Below are positions 11,075 through 18,396 of a stretch of 18,457 nucleotides of DNA, piece by piece. Numbering within the stretch: position 1 is the first letter of the stretch; each line of letters opens with the position of its first letter. A program made the position numbers and the translations under genes. The notes beneath the pieces are model-generated. The model searched no databases and was not told the DNA's origin. It saw nothing but the letters and a program-made list of their open reading frames with translations. Source of the stretch: Desulfuromonas sp. SDB (GTDB taxonomy: Bacteria; SDB-A); the NCBI GenBank assembly GCA_001412365.1, contig LKUE01000305.1, forward strand, positions 1 through 18,457, given 5' to 3'.

Positions 11075-13030
11075 CTACTGATAATCATCTAATTTAGCTT
11101 TGTTCAGAAAACGGTAGTCTCCGGAGCGGATAGTTAATTTTTCTGAATCAAACTGGCTAAACAGCAATAAACAGATTTTACGGTTTCCTTTAATCAGATC
11201 TCTGAATTCAGCTACGGTAATTCCTTTCTGGCTTTTTTTTAAATAGTCAATAAGCATCTTTCGCGATTTATTCACAACTTCTGATGATATAAATTTATCT
11301 TCGATTTTATATAACTTCCCCCCATCGGTAAGATACTTTAAAATTTGATTTAGATCTTTTAAACTGATTCCTCTGCTTTCACAGCTTTGCTTTAAATCAG
11401 CAGTAACTGGAGTTTTCATATCACATTGGCGGAAATATTCCTCTACCAAATCAATATCCTTCTGCCTGTTATTATCTAAGTGATGCTCTTCGCAGGGAAA
11501 AGACCAGCTTTCATCAGGATGTTTTTCAATAATCCCCTGCTTGGTCAAATCCTCCAGCAGATACTGAAGAACTTTAAAAATTAAACTTTTTTGATCAATT
11601 TTCAAATATTTTAGAATTTCCTTGATCTGGGGTCCCCGGTTCAAGATGGGATTTTCTTTGGTAAATGATTTTACTGTTTTTTTCAACGATGATTTAAGGT
11701 TTAGAAAATCAGAGGTAGAAATAAAAATTTTGCGGGGAGATACTTCCACCAACTTAATATCCTCGGGGAGATACCCCGGGGAAAGTTCTTCCAGCTGCTG
11801 GAGGGGGATATTGGTCAGATTGGAAATATCATCAATGGTTAGAGGGAGAGGAGACTTTCTAACCTGAGCGGCAACTATTTCCGATAACTCTCCGGTGGCA
11901 ATTTTTTGAATCTCCCGGATCAACTTATCCGGTCTTCTGCGGTGATGAAGAGGTGAGATATCTAAAATCTCTCCACCTCCCAGGGTTCTATCGCTGGAAG
12001 TATTGCGGATCACGTATTTATCCCCCGGCTGCAAAACCGCTGGTTTTTCCAGATGTATCTGCACCAGGGCATCTTCTTCGTTATTTAACTCATTTCGATC
12101 CAACAGATGAATTTTAGCCTGATGTTCATAAGTCCCGGTATGGAAGATAACCTGGGTCCAAATTTTAAAATACCCCACTTCATTAAAAAGTCTTAATTTT
12201 GCATCAATCATGGAGGTTGAATTCATTATTTCACCGGAGATCACCATCCCCCGGGAAAAATCAGAACGGTCCAACCCTACTAAATTTAAGGCAGCTCGGT
12301 CTCCTCCCTGAACTTTATCTACTTTTTCCCCATGTTTTTCTATTCTCCTCACCCTTAACTCCTTTGACTTGCTGGGAAGCAGATAGACTTTCTGATCGGT
12401 ACAGATTTTACCGCTGAGAACCGATCCATTAACTACTGTGCCAAAACCTTTTACAGTGAAGATTCTATCAATATACATCCTGAATATTCCCCGGTCTGAC
12501 CTGGTTTTAAGATGGTTGGATAATTTATCCAGTTTGGTCATCAACTGATCAATCCCCTTTCCTGTTTTTGCAGAAACCTCCACTACCGGCGCTTTTTCCA
12601 AAAAAGTGCCTTTGATGAATTCAGCTACATCCTCCCTGGCTATGGCTAAGCTGTCCTCATCAACCAGATCAATTTTAGTCATCACCACCACACCCTGGTT
12701 AACTCCCAGCACTTCCAGTATCTGAAGGTGTTCTACAGTTTGAGGCATAATTCCGCTGTCTGCGGCAATAACCATCATCACCATATCTATACCGCTGGCT
12801 CCTCCCACCATGGTATGCACAAAATCCTTGTGTCCGGGAACATCAATAATGCCCACGCTGTTGCCGGAGGCAAGGTTAATATGACTGAAACCGAGATGGA
12901 TGGTTATTCCCCGTTTCTTTTCTTCCTGGTGGGTATCACAATCATAACCGGTGAGGGCTTTAATTAAAGTAGTCTTTCCGTGGTCAATATGACCAGCCGT
13001 TCCCAGAATTAAGTGCTTAGGATTATTCAT
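11075..13030 (-). CDS. selB: Selenocysteine-specific elongation factor SelB
   Basis: SelB carries selenocysteyl-tRNA to the ribosome at UGA codons marked by a SECIS hairpin. The GTPase domain has GHIDHGKT (13-20), the switch I region KKRGITIHLGF, DVPGH (63-67) and TKID (118-121). GITIHLGF and DVPGHKDFVHTMVGGASG are typical of SelB rather than EF-Tu. The EF-Tu-like domains 2-3 extend to about residue 370. The remainder, to residue 651, should hold the winged-helix domains that bind the SECIS, for example VAEFRDLIKGNRKICLLLFS near the end. Total length is close to bacterial SelB (E. coli 614). It starts 5 nt after the selA stop, so the two are surely co-transcribed. The gene appears intact. Confidence 0.96.
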   Translation of the reverse strand: MNNPKHLILGTAGHIDHGKTTLIKALTGYDCDTHQEEKKRGITIHLGFSHINLASGNSVGIIDVPGHKDFVHTMVGGASGIDMVMMVIAADSGIMPQTVEHLQILEVLGVNQGVVVMTKIDLVDEDSLAIAREDVAEFIKGTFLEKAPVVEVSAKTGKGIDQLMTKLDKLSNHLKTRSDRGIFRMYIDRIFTVKGFGTVVNGSVLSGKICTDQKVYLLPSKSKELRVRRIEKHGEKVDKVQGGDRAALNLVGLDRSDFSRGMVISGEIMNSTSMIDAKLRLFNEVGYFKIWTQVIFHTGTYEHQAKIHLLDRNELNNEEDALVQIHLEKPAVLQPGDKYVIRNTSSDRTLGGGEILDISPLHHRRRPDKLIREIQKIATGELSEIVAAQVRKSPLPLTIDDISNLTNIPLQQLEELSPGYLPEDIKLVEVSPRKIFISTSDFLNLKSSLKKTVKSFTKENPILNRGPQIKEILKYLKIDQKSLIFKVLQYLLEDLTKQGIIEKHPDESWSFPCEEHHLDNNRQKDIDLVEEYFRQCDMKTPVTADLKQSCESRGISLKDLNQILKYLTDGGKLYKIEDKFISSEVVNKSRKMLIDYLKKSQKGITVAEFRDLIKGNRKICLLLFSQFDSEKLTIRSGDYRFLNKAKLDDYQ

Positions 13031-13035
13031 GATGT

Positions 13036-14424
13036 TTACTTGATTAATATTGACAGCTGCTCTGCGATATAAGCGGTTTGCTCATCGGATAAAGTGTAGA
13101 CATCAAACATCAATTCCCCTTTCCTGATAAAACCGACAACGGGGACATCTAATTTCAACAAATCAGCGAATATTTTATCTGCCAGTTTTTCACCAGTGGA
13201 TGGTTCAACCAGCTTAACTGCAATGCTTTCCACTTCTTTTCCGGGAAGGGCTCCACCCCCCGCTCTGGCTTTACTGGATACTATCTCCGAGTCAATATCA
13301 TATTTTTTCAACTGCTGCTTAAATAATCCAGCTCTTTTTTCCAGCTGCTCCCTGGTTTGTTTGAACATCTGTTTAATAGGTATATTTTCCAGATCAGCTT
13401 CATTCCCGGAGTAAAAACTTAAGGTACTGGTCAAGGCGGAAATAGTCAGTTTTCCCACTCTCAACGCTCTTTTCAGGGGAGCTTTTTTCAGTACTTTAAG
13501 ATATTTCTGCTTACCCACGATGATACCCGATTGAGGACCTCCTAATAATTTATCCCCGCTAAATGACACAATATCAACACCTTCCTCTATTGCCGTTTTC
13601 ACATCCGGCTCCAGATTAAGATATTGATCTGCGGTAGGATATAGATAACCTGATCCGATGTCGTAGAGCAGGGGGAGATTACTCTGCAGGGATAGATTTA
13701 CCAGTTGTTTAACCGATACTTCCTTGGAAAAACCCTGAATTGAATAGTTGGATTTATGAACTTTTATGATCATGGCGGTATTTTCATTTACTGCCTGCTG
13801 GTAGTCGTACAAATGGGTTTTATTGGTTGTGCCCACTTCCACCATCACTGCCCCCGAGGCTGAAAATATCTCCGGCATCCTGAAGGAACCTCCAATTTCC
13901 ACCAATTCCCCCCGGGAGATAATTACTTCTTTTCCCCGGGCTAAGCTGTGCAGAGTCAGCAGTACCGCAGCAGCATTATTGTTTACTATCACTACATCTT
14001 CAGCTCCGGTGAGATATTTTAAAAGTTCTCCGATATGGTGGTCGCGTTTTCCCCGGGTGCCTTTGCTTAAATCAAATTCCAGATTGGAATAACCGGAAGC
14101 AATATTGACCATGTTTTCTAAAACTTTAAGACCCAGGGGCGATCTGCCCAGATTGGTATGGACTACTGTCCCGGTGGCATTGATTACCTTGGTCAAAGTT
14201 GATGATTTTAATTTATGAATTTTGTGTTGAATTCCCCTGATAATATCTGATACTTCCACTTCCTGTTTCTGGTTGACAATCAGATTTCTAAATTTATCTA
14301 ATTCCTCCCGGATTACTGAGATTAAAATCATCCGGTTGGTTTTGCCTGACAATTCAACAATTTCGGGGAAATTGAGAATTTTATCCACACTGGGGATGTT
14401 CTTTAAATATTTTGAATTTTCCAT
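13036..14424 (-). CDS. selA: L-seryl-tRNA(Sec) selenium transferase SelA
   Basis: This PLP enzyme converts Ser-tRNA(Sec) to Sec-tRNA(Sec) using selenophosphate. Its 462 residues equal the usual SelA length. The conserved INATGTVVHTNLGRSPL stands at 81-97, and the PLP lysine is K292 in SFSGDKLLGGPQSG. RAGGGALPG and the C-terminal VVGFIRKGELMFDV are also family signatures. The ATG begins only 12 nt after the 3' end of the tRNA-Sec gene, leaving no room for a normal ribosome site except a GAG that overlaps the tRNA's last base. selB follows after 5 nt. selD, the selenophosphate synthetase gene, is not in the window and must be elsewhere for the pathway to work. Confidence 0.97.
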   Translation of the reverse strand: MENSKYLKNIPSVDKILNFPEIVELSGKTNRMILISVIREELDKFRNLIVNQKQEVEVSDIIRGIQHKIHKLKSSTLTKVINATGTVVHTNLGRSPLGLKVLENMVNIASGYSNLEFDLSKGTRGKRDHHIGELLKYLTGAEDVVIVNNNAAAVLLTLHSLARGKEVIISRGELVEIGGSFRMPEIFSASGAVMVEVGTTNKTHLYDYQQAVNENTAMIIKVHKSNYSIQGFSKEVSVKQLVNLSLQSNLPLLYDIGSGYLYPTADQYLNLEPDVKTAIEEGVDIVSFSGDKLLGGPQSGIIVGKQKYLKVLKKAPLKRALRVGKLTISALTSTLSFYSGNEADLENIPIKQMFKQTREQLEKRAGLFKQQLKKYDIDSEIVSSKARAGGGALPGKEVESIAVKLVEPSTGEKLADKIFADLLKLDVPVVGFIRKGELMFDVYTLSDEQTAYIAEQLSILIK

Positions 14425-14436
14425 AATAGTTAAACT

Positions 14437-14528
14437 CAGAGAGGGCAGGAATCGAACCTGCCACGGGCGGTATTATCCGTCCGCTACTGGTTTTGAAGAC
14501 CAGCTGAACCACCAGATTCATCCTCTCC
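14437..14528 (-). tRNA. selC: tRNA-Sec (anticodon UCA)
   Basis: The 92-nt cloverleaf reads the UGA codon. I fold a 7-bp acceptor stem (GGAGAGG with CCTCTCT, first pair G-U) and a 6-bp D stem with 4-nt loop (TGAATC, TGGT, GGTTCA), a hallmark of tRNA-Sec. The anticodon stem is CTGGT/ACCAG with loop CTTCAAA (anticodon TCA; complement at 14494-14496). A long variable arm pairs GCGGACGG with CCGCCCGT apart from one mismatch. The T arm is GCAGG, TTCGATT, CCTGC. The base after the acceptor is G73; CCA is not encoded. Bacterial tRNA-Sec usually has an 8-bp acceptor stem, so the 7-bp fold is slightly unusual. It heads the selC-selA-selB operon. Confidence 0.95.
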
Positions 14529-14543
14529 TCAAATTGATACTAT

Positions 14544-14572: not shown

Positions 14573-14624
14573 GTTATTATTAGCATTACTCTAACCTTTA
14601 GCCCTGCTTTTATAAAAACTTGAC
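14568..14624. repeat. 8-bp dyad overlapping both divergent -35 boxes
   Basis: GTCAAGTT (14568-14575) and AACTTGAC (14617-14624) are perfect inverted copies, 41 nt apart. Each overlaps the -35 box of one divergent promoter. Five of the eight bases are simply the -35 consensus, so a shared operator is only a possibility. Confidence 0.3.
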
Positions 14625-14647
14625 ATTTAAACCTAAGCCCTTAATAT
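14620..14647 (+). promoter_or_regulatory. Promoter of the UGA-interrupted secreted protein gene
   Basis: A perfect TTGACA (14620-14625) is followed after 16 nt by TAATAT (14642-14647). A start about 8 nt downstream would give a leader of about 50 nt to the ATG at 14706, which has GGAGGGTG just upstream. Confidence 0.6.
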
Positions 14648-14705
14648 AAATAAATTGTTAGCTTTTTAGTATAACATTAAATTTTTCAGATAACCGGAGG
14701 GTGAT

Positions 14706-15902
14706 ATGACTATTTCAGCAGCACTGCTGGCAATTTTCCTCATGGGGAACTTGATATGTCCAAACGGTCAAAATATTGGCAACAGCGATATTTTATCTAA
14801 AAATCCCCATATGAACAATAATCTTTGGACTGGTTTTTCCAACAACGGAGATATTGGAACCAATGTTGGTCCCTCTTTTGAATTCCCCGGAGGATCGGGA
14901 AAAAATTACTTATTCCAGGGATCTATCGGTGTAGGTTTTATCAACGGGAACGACACGGTGGTAGTGTCAACCCAACTTTGTTGAGGAGGGTTGTCCGAAT
15001 GGACAGTCTCCCACAGTTCGTGGGAATGGGTCAATGACTCTTTGTATAGAAGTTTTTACCGATTCAACGATGTCATGCACGCCACCGGCTTGGTGGTGGA
15101 ACGCTGTGGCTATTCCTGGTCTCAAACTGCAAATCAGAATTTTTTAGTTTTTGTTCACCACATAATTAACAATTCCAAGGCGGATTATCAAAACGTATAC
15201 CTGTCCATGTATCTGGATCTGGATATGCCCAGCACATCTTATTCCAATGATCTGGCTGATTATGTGGATTCCCTTAATTTAATTTATCAGATTGATAATG
15301 AAGCGGATTCAGTGAGGATAGGGATGAAAATTCTCAATCCTACCTGCGCTCAGGGGCTGCATTTTATCAATTACAATACCACTCCGGAAACTGACGGGGA
15401 GTATTATAATTTAATTATCCATACTAACACCAATCCTACTCCTCCCACCACGCCCATGGATTATAAAATATTGTTATGTACCGGTCCCTATGTTTTAAAT
15501 GCCGGGGATACCATTGATTTTGCCATAGGTACAGTTGCCGGAGTGGGGGTGGATGATTTGGTGAACAATGCCCAAGCTATGCAGGCGGCATATGACACCC
15601 TGGCTACGGCTGTACAGGAGCCGCCGGCAGCAGTTTTACCCGGCGATAATAGGGTAAATTTTGCCCCCAATATATCTTCAGGGGTATTCAGTTGTTCATT
15701 TAATTTGCCTATTAGTTCAAATTATCAAATTGAAATATTTGACCTCCAGGGAAGAAAAGTAAAAGACTTTGGGATTCTGAAAGGGCAACAAGGTATTAAT
15801 TCATTGAATATTGATCTTTCCGGATTAGAACAGGGTATTTACTTTGCAAAAATAAATACCCCTTACTTCAATTCCAACAATCGTCTGATTTTAATTAAAT
15901 AG
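14706..15902 (+). CDS. Exported sorting-domain protein interrupted by in-frame UGA (candidate selenoprotein)
   Basis: A good ribosome site (GGAGG, 5 nt spacing) and promoter lead into a hydrophobic N-terminus (MTISAALLAIFLMGNLIC) that looks like a signal peptide without the usual lysines. The frame stops at UGA 14982-14984 (codon 93) and stays open in the same frame to 15902, giving 398 residues if the UGA is read. The part before the UGA (FPGGSGKNYLFQGSIGVGFI, then NGNDTVVVST) and the part after it (NQNFLVFVHHIINNSKADYQ, then NVYLSMYLDLDM) look to me like successive pieces of one family of FCB exported proteins. The last 65 residues (IEIFDLQGRKVKDFGILKG to the end) are a type IX secretion sorting module. 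A restart at the TTG at 14991 is unlikely, as AGGAGG would be 1 nt away. The alternatives are selenocysteine or a nonsense mutation (pseudogene). Confidence 0.7.
14982..15025 (+). promoter_or_regulatory. UGA followed by two hairpins, candidate bacterial SECIS
   Basis: After UGA (14982-14984), GGAG+GTTGTCC pairs with GGACAGT+CTCC around a GAAT loop, with one bulged G (14985-15011, 11 pairs). A second hairpin, TCCCAC, AGTTC, GTGGGA (15009-15025), has its loop 30 nt after the UGA with G as second loop base. That agrees with the known bacterial SECIS rule of a loop 16-37 nt away and a G in the first two loop bases. The outer part of the first stem and the second stem exclude each other. Confidence 0.45.
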
Positions 15903-16015: not shown

Positions 16016-17365
16016 ATGAAATTCTCTTTAGTGCTAGCTTTCCTCTTAATAATTGTATCTGCATTAGCCGCAACAAATGCAGATGGAGTCCCTTCAGGAA
16101 TGATCCTGGACAGCGGAAATGAATTATTTATTCCCTGCAGCCCGGACTCAGCTTCCTGGACGACATATCCAACCATTTCCGTCGCCAGTTGCGGAATGTA
16201 TGCCGGATTTAATTATGTAGGACCGGATTTGTTCATCCACGCATTTGGAGGAAATAATACCCAAGCAGTGAACACCTATCATTTTATCTACGACTGTACT
16301 GCAGGAACCTGGAGCACCGGCACTCCTTTACCGGTGGGACTACGTTACGGCAGATCAACAACCCATAACGGGGTAATTTACTTGTTCGGGGGGTGGTCTG
16401 GTCTTCCCAATATGGTGAAGTACTACTGTGACGGAGACAGCTACCAAACCGGAACCATGCTTTACGGAGTAAATGATCCCCAGGTGGCTTTGGTAAAAGA
16501 CCGGGAGTTGATCTACGTTATTGGAGGGGGTAGTGGATGGACTCCTCAAACTTATGTACAGGTTTTCGACATCAATGGAGACAGTTTCTTTACCGCCACC
16601 AGTCTGCCGGTAGGAGTTATGGCGGGAGCAGGAGGTTATATCGGAAATGACACCTTGATGGTAACCTGCGGTGGACAGGGTGGCTCAACATGGACTAATT
16701 CAACTTATGTCGGAGTAATTGATCCTGCTGATCCTACGGTGATAACCTGGTCTGCAGGAACTGCTTTGCCCGGAACTGCCCGGAGAAGAGTAGGTGATGA
16801 AATTTGGAATAATACTCTTTATGTATTAGCAGGTCAGTTAGACGGTTATGTTTATACCAATGAATGTTATGCCTACACAACTAATGTGGGATGGTCAACT
16901 CTTCCCAGCAAACCCACTCTAAGCATGAATCTAATTGCTACTGCAGCTCCAGTTGAAGTTACCGATGCTACCGAGGGATATATTTTCTGCCCCGGGGGAT
17001 ATCTCAATTCCGCTTATTTAAATATCTTCGAAGTGCTGCTGACTGACATATTCCTTTCAGTTGAGGAACCGGGAACTAATCCTATCAACAATTTCAATTT
17101 AAGACTGTTATCAAACAATCCCCTCCATGGAGATTTCATTGTGGAATTACAGTTACCCGAAAATTCTGAAGTAAACTTCAACATCTATGACTTGACCGGA
17201 AGAACAGTAAGGAATGCCGGCTTTTCCAATATTCCCGCTGGAACTCACCGGTTAACCTGGGAAAGAATTGACAACTATGGAAAACAAGTCACTTCAGGCA
17301 GTTACTTCTATGTAGTACAAGCCGGATCAAATATCTTTTCAGGTAAAATCATCCTGACTCAATAG
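16016..17365 (+). CDS. Exported kelch-type beta-propeller with C-terminal sorting domain
   Basis: The product has 449 residues. A classic signal peptide (MKFSLVLAFLLIIVSALA, then ATN) is followed by repeated kelch-like blades of about 45-50 residues. Each has an aromatic-x-D/Y turn, a W, a loop with PLP or ALP, and a YLFGG/YVIGGG/YVLAG strand: STGTPLPVGLRYGRST..GVIYLFGG, ATSLPVGVMAGAGGY, and GTALPGTARRRVGDEI..NTLYVLAG. The last 90 residues (INNFNLRLLSNNPLHGDFIV, then NIYDLTGRTVRNAGF and GKQVTSGSYFYVV) are a FlgD-like Ig/type IX sorting module that directs export to the cell surface or medium. Such propellers bind proteins or glycans; no catalytic motif is seen. The gene has its own ribosome site and is followed by a clear terminator, so it is probably monocistronic. 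Confidence 0.87.
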   Translation: MKFSLVLAFLLIIVSALAATNADGVPSGMILDSGNELFIPCSPDSASWTTYPTISVASCGMYAGFNYVGPDLFIHAFGGNNTQAVNTYHFIYDCTAGTWSTGTPLPVGLRYGRSTTHNGVIYLFGGWSGLPNMVKYYCDGDSYQTGTMLYGVNDPQVALVKDRELIYVIGGGSGWTPQTYVQVFDINGDSFFTATSLPVGVMAGAGGYIGNDTLMVTCGGQGGSTWTNSTYVGVIDPADPTVITWSAGTALPGTARRRVGDEIWNNTLYVLAGQLDGYVYTNECYAYTTNVGWSTLPSKPTLSMNLIATAAPVEVTDATEGYIFCPGGYLNSAYLNIFEVLLTDIFLSVEEPGTNPINNFNLRLLSNNPLHGDFIVELQLPENSEVNFNIYDLTGRTVRNAGFSNIPAGTHRLTWERIDNYGKQVTSGSYFYVVQAGSNIFSGKIILTQ

Positions 17366-17430: not shown

Positions 17431-18396
17431 ATGAAAAAGAGATTAGTAGTTGTATTTATATGTTTGATTTTCATTACGGTTAGTGCTCCTAACTTGGAGT
17501 TAATATCCACAGATGCCATTCCGCTTAACCGCAACGGTTATGTCAGGATTAACGGTTCCACCTCTGCTGAACCGATGATAAAAGTTATCATCATGAGTAT
17601 TTTGGAAGTTCCCTTCAATTGGGAAGTAAGTTTTGACGGTACCCGGAGAATTGTACCGGAAGAAGATTGCGAAATGGATCAGGAAAATGAAATGTTAATT
17701 TCAAATCTTTACATTTCCGGAACCCACAATGCCTACACCGATCTGATTGTGGATAATGTTGATCTGATAATTGTGGCCAGGGCACCTTCTGATGATGAGC
17801 TTGTGGATGCCGAAAACAACGGGGTGGAACTGGAAGTAGTCCCCATCGCCTATGACGGATTTGTGTTCATCAACCATGTCAGCAATCCGGTGAGATATCT
17901 GGCTCTAGATGAAATACAGAAAATTTATACCGGACAAATTACTGCTTGGGGGCAGATTTGCACCTTGGAGCTACCTCCCATGGAAATCCACCCCTACCAG
18001 AGGAACCGGAACTCGGGAAGTCAGGAGTTAATGAAAAATCTGGTGATGGGGGATTTGGAAATGATTGATGCACCGGATATGATAAGTTTTAGCATGGTGG
18101 GACCGATTAATGCCATCACTGATGATCTTCTGGGAATTGGCTATTCGGTGTTCTTCTATGCTGCCAATATATTTCCCCATGATTCCATCCAGATGATGGG
18201 TATATATGAAGTAATGCCCAGCAGACAAACTATCCACAGCAGGGAATATCCCTTGACTACTGAAGTATATGCGGTGATCAGAAAAAATATGACCGATGAT
18301 CATCCTGCGGTGATCTTAAGAAACTGGCTGTTAACTGAAGAAGGTCAGAAAGTAATATCTGCCAGTGGTTATGTACCCATCAGCGGTGATTTTTAA
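17431..18396 (+). CDS. PstS-like substrate-binding protein
   Basis: The protein has 321 residues with a signal peptide (MKKRLVVVFICLIFITVSA). The mature part has the PBP-like fold of phosphate-binding PstS. INGSTSAEPMIK (40-51) matches the first anion-binding loop (GSTS). LALDEIQKIYTGQITAWGQ is the conserved family segment between the lobes, and RNRNSGSQELM corresponds to the R...SG[TS] loop that grips phosphate. GIGYSVFFY also matches. No pstCAB or phoU gene is in view and no lipobox cysteine follows the signal, so an orphan periplasmic or secreted anion-binding role is possible. The 65-nt spacer before it holds the kelch terminator and an AGAGGA ribosome site but no convincing promoter. It may depend on readthrough. 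Confidence 0.85.
   Translation: MKKRLVVVFICLIFITVSAPNLELISTDAIPLNRNGYVRINGSTSAEPMIKVIIMSILEVPFNWEVSFDGTRRIVPEEDCEMDQENEMLISNLYISGTHNAYTDLIVDNVDLIIVARAPSDDELVDAENNGVELEVVPIAYDGFVFINHVSNPVRYLALDEIQKIYTGQITAWGQICTLELPPMEIHPYQRNRNSGSQELMKNLVMGDLEMIDAPDMISFSMVGPINAITDDLLGIGYSVFFYAANIFPHDSIQMMGIYEVMPSRQTIHSREYPLTTEVYAVIRKNMTDDHPAVILRNWLLTEEGQKVISASGYVPISGDF

Follow-up and report, generated by a model that had tools for sequence, protein, structure and literature searches.

An in-frame UGA beside the selenocysteine synthesis genes of Desulfuromonas sp. SDB very probably marks an undescribed family of secreted selenoproteins

Beside the tRNA-Sec gene of Desulfuromonas sp. SDB lies a divergent gene whose reading frame is interrupted early by a single UGA codon, and we asked whether this codon is decoded as selenocysteine (Sec) or ends the protein there. 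The window that we analyzed, by which we mean the whole stretch of DNA under study, comprises 18,457 nucleotides of contig LKUE01000305.1. The explanation at which we arrive is a selenoprotein of a new family, with Sec at UGA 93, export by the type IX secretion system (T9SS), and a predicted role at the cell surface, and we put its probability as a whole at about 0.9; that UGA 93 is decoded as Sec, judged by sequence comparison, is a slightly safer claim still. Very probably the gene belongs to a family of secreted selenoproteins at the cell surface that has not been described before, and it lies beside the genes for Sec synthesis. The predicted parts of the gene in the window are:

14696-14701, plus strand: ribosome binding site GGAGGG serving the ATG at 14706, read from the sequence
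14706-15902, plus strand: predicted exported selenoprotein gene of a nine-member family, 398 amino acids with UGA read as Sec, ending in TAG
14706-14768, plus strand: probable N-terminal signal peptide, by inspection
14706-15620, plus strand: putative N-terminal domain with the Sec (residues 1-305); 44 columns are invariant, among them that of U93
14982-14984, plus strand: predicted Sec codon UGA, number 93 of the frame, following a Cys codon (C92-U93); column invariant in 9 of 9 homologues
15666-15863, plus strand: T9SS C-terminal sorting domain (Por_Secre_tail), by Pfam and NCBIfam

The TGA at 14982-14984 (codon 93) is the only interruption of a plus-strand frame that is otherwise open from 14706 to 15902 and that closes with TAG; the preliminary description of this DNA had one frame continuing across the UGA, and indeed no further internal stop is present. 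Its statement that the second half has no usable start of its own holds in part: a TTG does occur at 14991, though with zero spacer between it and the adjoining Shine-Dalgarno-like (SD-like) sequence GAGGAGGG.

We checked the proposal that codon 93 specifies Sec by aligning homologues there. The family that we assembled consists of the window gene, its paralogue within the same genome (G000:C158), plus seven genes from three further genomes (G001-G003; the window's own genome is G000). The four genomes, all apparently fragmented assemblies, belong to the same phylum and family and to two genera, and they are all the genomes of this phylum that the search covered. The paralogue and the seven homologues match the window protein over its full length at 34-41% identity. 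Each of the nine genes has exactly one internal stop, which is a TGA in the same alignment column, early in the gene (codon 84-93 across the family); in no member does this column hold TGG, Cys, TAA, TAG, or any sense codon. The proposal of Sec at codon 93 is thereby supported. As for the C-U pair that was described along with it, the Sec column is invariant (9/9), but the preceding residue is Cys in only 8/9 and Asn in the ninth (L029). Because the Cys is replaced in one member, it is Sec, rather than the C-U pair, that is the invariant feature of the family.

A tree of the nine members resolves a subfamily A, made up of the window gene and one gene each from G001-G003 (support 84/86), a subfamily B with one gene from each of the four genomes (support 99/99), and a long branch, C, found in G001 only. 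Since A and B are both present in all four genomes, their split predates that of the two genera, and the UGA has been kept in both.

Downstream of the UGA, two hairpins can be drawn in the window gene:

14991-15006, plus strand: proximal hairpin UUGUCC-GAAU-GGACAG, 6 bp, loop starting 12 nt after the UGA
15009-15025, plus strand: candidate SECIS element UCCCAC-AGUUC-GUGGGA, 6 bp, loop starting 30 nt after the UGA, with G and U at loop positions 2-3

The published bacterial SECIS model calls for a loop 16-37 nt from the UGA, a G in the first two loop positions, and a stem of at least 4 bp, with a free-energy cut-off of -7.5. The distal hairpin has this geometry at one place in six of the nine genes, with a loop of AGUU 30-31 nt after the UGA. 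Throughout subfamily A it reads (U)CCCAC-AGUUC-GUGGG(A), with the loop 30 nt after the UGA, and it recurs at the same place as UUCCUAC-AGUUG-GUGGGAA in the subfamily B gene of G000 and as CCCAUA-GUU-UAUGGG in L029. Among these six, the window gene and the subfamily A gene of G001 alone pass the energy cut-off as isolated stems. The subfamily B gene of G001 has a candidate of fitting geometry at a shifted place, CCAUUG-CGUCCUGU-CAAUGG, at 25 nt, and we saw no convincing SECIS candidate in the subfamily B genes of G002 and G003. RNAalifold also arrived at the distal hairpin, in which one pair is changed on both sides (CG to UA), and the structure with both named hairpins has 72% paired cells against 28-45% in slid versions, while the folding energy of the 53-nt stretch is not significant alone (z -1.14). 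The covariation is modest, and codon conservation may explain part of the hairpin signal; we regard the SECIS evidence as supportive of Sec decoding and not as decisive. The proximal hairpin occurs in subfamily A and, built from other bases, in L029. We rejected it as a SECIS element, as its loop starts 12 nt from the UGA, short of the published 16-37 nt, and as subfamily B shows it only weakly.

On the 5' side of the window gene we annotated the following:

11075-13030, minus strand: selB, Sec-specific elongation factor with winged-helix domain, called by its SelB domains
13036-14424, minus strand: selA, selenocysteine synthase (Pfam SelA, 450.8 bits)
14437-14529, minus strand: tRNA-Sec (selC) with UCA anticodon, transcribed away from the selenoprotein gene, found by ARAGORN and by Rfam (RF01852, 62.8 bits)
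14620-14647, plus strand: promoter-like TTGACA-16-TAATAT for the selenoprotein gene, a consensus match only

The end of the tRNA-Sec gene (14529) lies 176 nt from the ATG at 14706, on opposite strands, which agrees with the earlier placing of the gene about 180 bp from tRNA-Sec and divergent from selC-selA-selB. In all four genomes the subfamily A gene is divergent from tRNA-Sec. In G001 it is divergent from tRNA-Sec, selA and selB just as in the window; in G002 and G003 the contigs start at a tRNA-Sec that is cut by the contig end (matched by Rfam and not by ARAGORN), with the A gene next and in the same orientation, so that selA-selB behind tRNA-Sec is confirmed in two genomes, those of the window and G001. 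In both G000 and G001 the TTGACA/TAATAT sequence stands 5' of the A gene, and in G002 and G003 we found by eye a TTGAC followed by an AT-rich, -10-like stretch. In a scan of the whole window, promoter-like sites were no more numerous than in shuffled sequences. The selC-adjacent copy is probably under the control of a shared divergent promoter region, and the conserved layout suggests that the gene is connected with how Sec synthesis is regulated.

This layout speaks for the reading in which the UGA is mainly regulatory, that is, in which the supply of Sec sets the balance of truncated and full-length protein, the gene on the selC side serves as a gauge of selenium, and the chemistry of Sec is minor. 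The early position of the UGA, the hairpins that follow it, and the existence of UGA-free relatives that manage with neither Cys nor Sec at the site are all in keeping with this. The subfamily B and C copies, on the other hand, are not beside sel genes and keep the UGA nonetheless, and the Cys before Sec in 8/9 members suggests chemistry. We consider a mainly regulatory UGA unlikely, although it fares best among the alternatives.

In the neighbourhood of the subfamily B genes we note that those of G001-G003 adjoin a conserved gene of about 490 amino acids with no Pfam match (L094:6044-7528, L095:1636-3123, and L096:3316-4797), relatives of which are present in G000 too (L093). In the window's genome, a peptidase C69 family gene lies directly 3' of the subfamily B selenoprotein gene (L093:7963-9708).

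We also weighed a pair of cistrons, with true termination at the UGA and separate translation of the downstream frame by reinitiation, because in most members of subfamily B an ATG follows the UGA at a distance of 3 nt (CAC ATG); the window gene itself has its TTG right after the SD-like sequence. Subfamily A and L029 are without that ATG, and the downstream product would carry a T9SS tail without a signal peptide. Frame and spacing across the UGA are kept in 9/9 members, and the residues that flank it form one conserved domain. Nor is the stop ever TAA or TAG. Among frames of at least 150 amino acids in the neighbourhoods that we fetched from G000, G001, G002, and G003, TGA closes 3/28, 15/33, 5/12, and 12/28, respectively, and the nine genes themselves end in TAG (five) or TAA (four) and never in TGA. 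At this local usage, the chance that nine unrelated ordinary stops would all be TGA is about 3e-5, a value that can serve only as a guide, the genes being related. Separate translation of the two halves is, on these grounds, improbable.

A nonsense mutation in a decaying gene, turning TGG or another sense codon into TGA, or else an assembly error, had been put forward as the main rival to Sec: TGG and TGA are one base apart and the region is rich in Trp codons. It loses that standing, as no relative has TGG there and the same TGA recurs in nine genes from four independently assembled genomes, with no other stop in the frame of any of them. Purifying selection also persists 3' of the TGA: in the two pairs with unsaturated Ks, Ka/Ks in this part is 0.07 and 0.15 (the remaining pairs are saturated at synonymous sites). 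By this measure the part past the UGA evolves under purifying selection and is translated, and we give a mutation or an assembly error almost no credence. If the lineage had reassigned UGA to Trp, Gly, or Cys, the site would hold an ordinary amino acid, which would suit a frame that reads through. This is extremely improbable, given that UGA ends many genes in the same neighbourhoods, that in-frame UGA otherwise occurs in SelD, at its known Sec position, and that a complete Sec machinery including tRNA-Sec is present.

Sec decoding, in contrast, has independent footing in these genomes. tRNA-Sec and SelD score above cut-off in 4/4, and SelA and SelB were found in both genomes that were searched for them, G000 and G001. 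All four SelD genes have UGA at the known GU-AAK site, so UGA decoding is in use in the lineage independently of the new family. The Sec-containing SelD genes carry UAGGUC-CGUGY-GACCU(A) 3' of the UGA, again with GU in the loop (scored for the G000 gene only). The Sec-containing SelD of these genomes shares with the new protein UGA decoding, a downstream GU-loop hairpin, and the machinery, and differs in being a cytosolic enzyme of a known family whose hairpin lies 16 nt from the UGA rather than 30. A second SelD form coexists with it in G000 (L072, C363) and G001 (L073, C66), fused behind a cysteine-desulfurase-like N-terminus in frames of 737 and 744 amino acids, respectively, and with GCACK instead of Sec.

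The description of the product as a T9SS-type exported protein stands on curated thresholds: its type A sorting domain scores 36 bits with Por_Secre_tail (PF18962; cut-off 27) and 34.8 with TIGR04183 (cut-off 23), and TIGR04183 also matches L002 and L029. The signal peptide of the window protein is by inspection hydrophobic with a weakly basic n-region, the n-regions of subfamily B being more typical. SprA_N is above cut-off in 4/4 genomes and in 0/14 controls. As sorting domain and SprA translocon gene occur in the same genomes, we take export to proceed through T9SS.

To look for more distant relatives, and for forms with Cys in place of Sec, we used a profile of the N-terminal 305 residues against about 520 genomes sampled outside the phylum. 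At 1e-10 or better, 23 of 382 sampled genomes matched, nearly all in the C-terminal half of the domain only; in a further phylum (132 genomes) the matches likewise fell mostly in this half. The nearest searchable phyla gave the C-terminal half only, in a search that in part spanned very few genomes. No Cys homologue appeared among the approximately 520 genomes. In about 35 UGA-free relatives that we inspected, D, P, N, T, G, or R stands near the Sec column and never Cys, as a rough reading of the segment after a conserved VS in a loose alignment in which the exact column cannot be assigned for most proteins. On present data, then, the Sec of this family appears to have no Cys counterpart; Cys homologues are usual in selenoprotein families, yet not required.

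The UGA-free, T9SS-tailed relatives (frames of 440-2650 amino acids) resemble the family in the C-terminal half of its domain (model positions 110-300, E to 2e-25) and loosely in the N-terminal one; in some, such as L101 (G492:C55), a subtilisin-like protease part precedes the domain. Unlike the Sec family, they are longer and have neither an in-frame UGA nor Cys at the column, and only the Sec family has the N-terminal C-U segment. One T9SS-like relative from a single-contig 5 Mb genome (L069, G060:C1:642458-643243) has a single in-frame TGA at a different place (PTDV-U-EWYMDDL), which may be a nonsense mutation, a sequencing error, or an independent Sec. Searches of IMG/VR and of plasmids returned no relative, and a search of a collection of genome contigs matched the sorting tail only. 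With NCBIfam and Pfam, too, only the sorting tail of the window protein matched, and no NCBIfam selenoprotein model did. A PDB profile search gave nothing meaningful (best E 1.8), and PADLOC found nothing.

The preliminary description knew of no described T9SS selenoprotein, and our literature search agrees: we found no T9SS, type IX, or sorting-domain selenoprotein in the open-access literature searched, which leaves room for an unlisted report. Of the 119 prokaryotic selenoprotein families or subfamilies in a 2026 review (PMC13188914), none is described as T9SS-sorted. Table 1 of this review includes bacterial selenoproteins with a C-U motif, namely SaoL/SaoC/SaoB of the SAO system, HgcA, the Csac_0668 family, KCU-star, and MbdU; these likewise have an in-frame UGA with Cys directly before Sec, but consist of other domains and have no T9SS sorting tail. 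Another predicted cell-envelope selenoprotein is the TonB-dependent receptor of the FCYXU type (NF049945; deep-Sep, PMC12013277), an outer-membrane receptor of sulfate reducers, which differs in having CxxU and Cys homologues and which, judged by an NCBIfam scan, is not related in sequence. Cys homologues exist for almost every known prokaryotic selenoprotein, and as the discovery methods reviewed depend on them, a family without Cys forms would be missed. With this family, Sec would enter the type IX secretion route, where the literature searched holds no selenoprotein, and the question is raised of what a bacterium gains from exporting a costly, oxidation-prone residue.

In the mechanism that we propose, SelB and Sec-tRNA-Sec would read UGA 93 as selenocysteine with the hairpin just downstream as a guide, and the full 398-residue chain, with its N-terminal signal and C-terminal sorting domain, would leave the cell through the type IX system. 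Outside the cell, Sec, mostly beside Cys, would then occupy a loop in a beta-rich domain at the surface and make up an exposed site that is redox-active (selenenylsulfide) or binds soft metals. The loop position and the active-site role are guesses, because the AlphaFold model of the single window protein is uninformative (mean pLDDT 36), and we advance the exposed Cys-Sec redox or soft-metal site only tentatively as the biochemical role. By analogy, C-U selenoproteins that handle organometals (SaoL, HgcA) may point toward such a role, as a lead and not as a test. More speculative, and in our view doubtful, is the idea of a Sec-only T9SS surface family in which Sec arose where Cys never stood. 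By way of the common divergent promoter region, its selC-linked member would couple the Sec machinery to chemistry at the cell surface, which might be the capture of metal, metalloid, or oxidant, or else the acquisition of selenium.

Downstream of the selenoprotein gene and on the same strand, the window also encodes a kelch-repeat protein with a FlgD-like/sorting tail (16016-17365) and a PstS-like substrate-binding protein (17431-18396).
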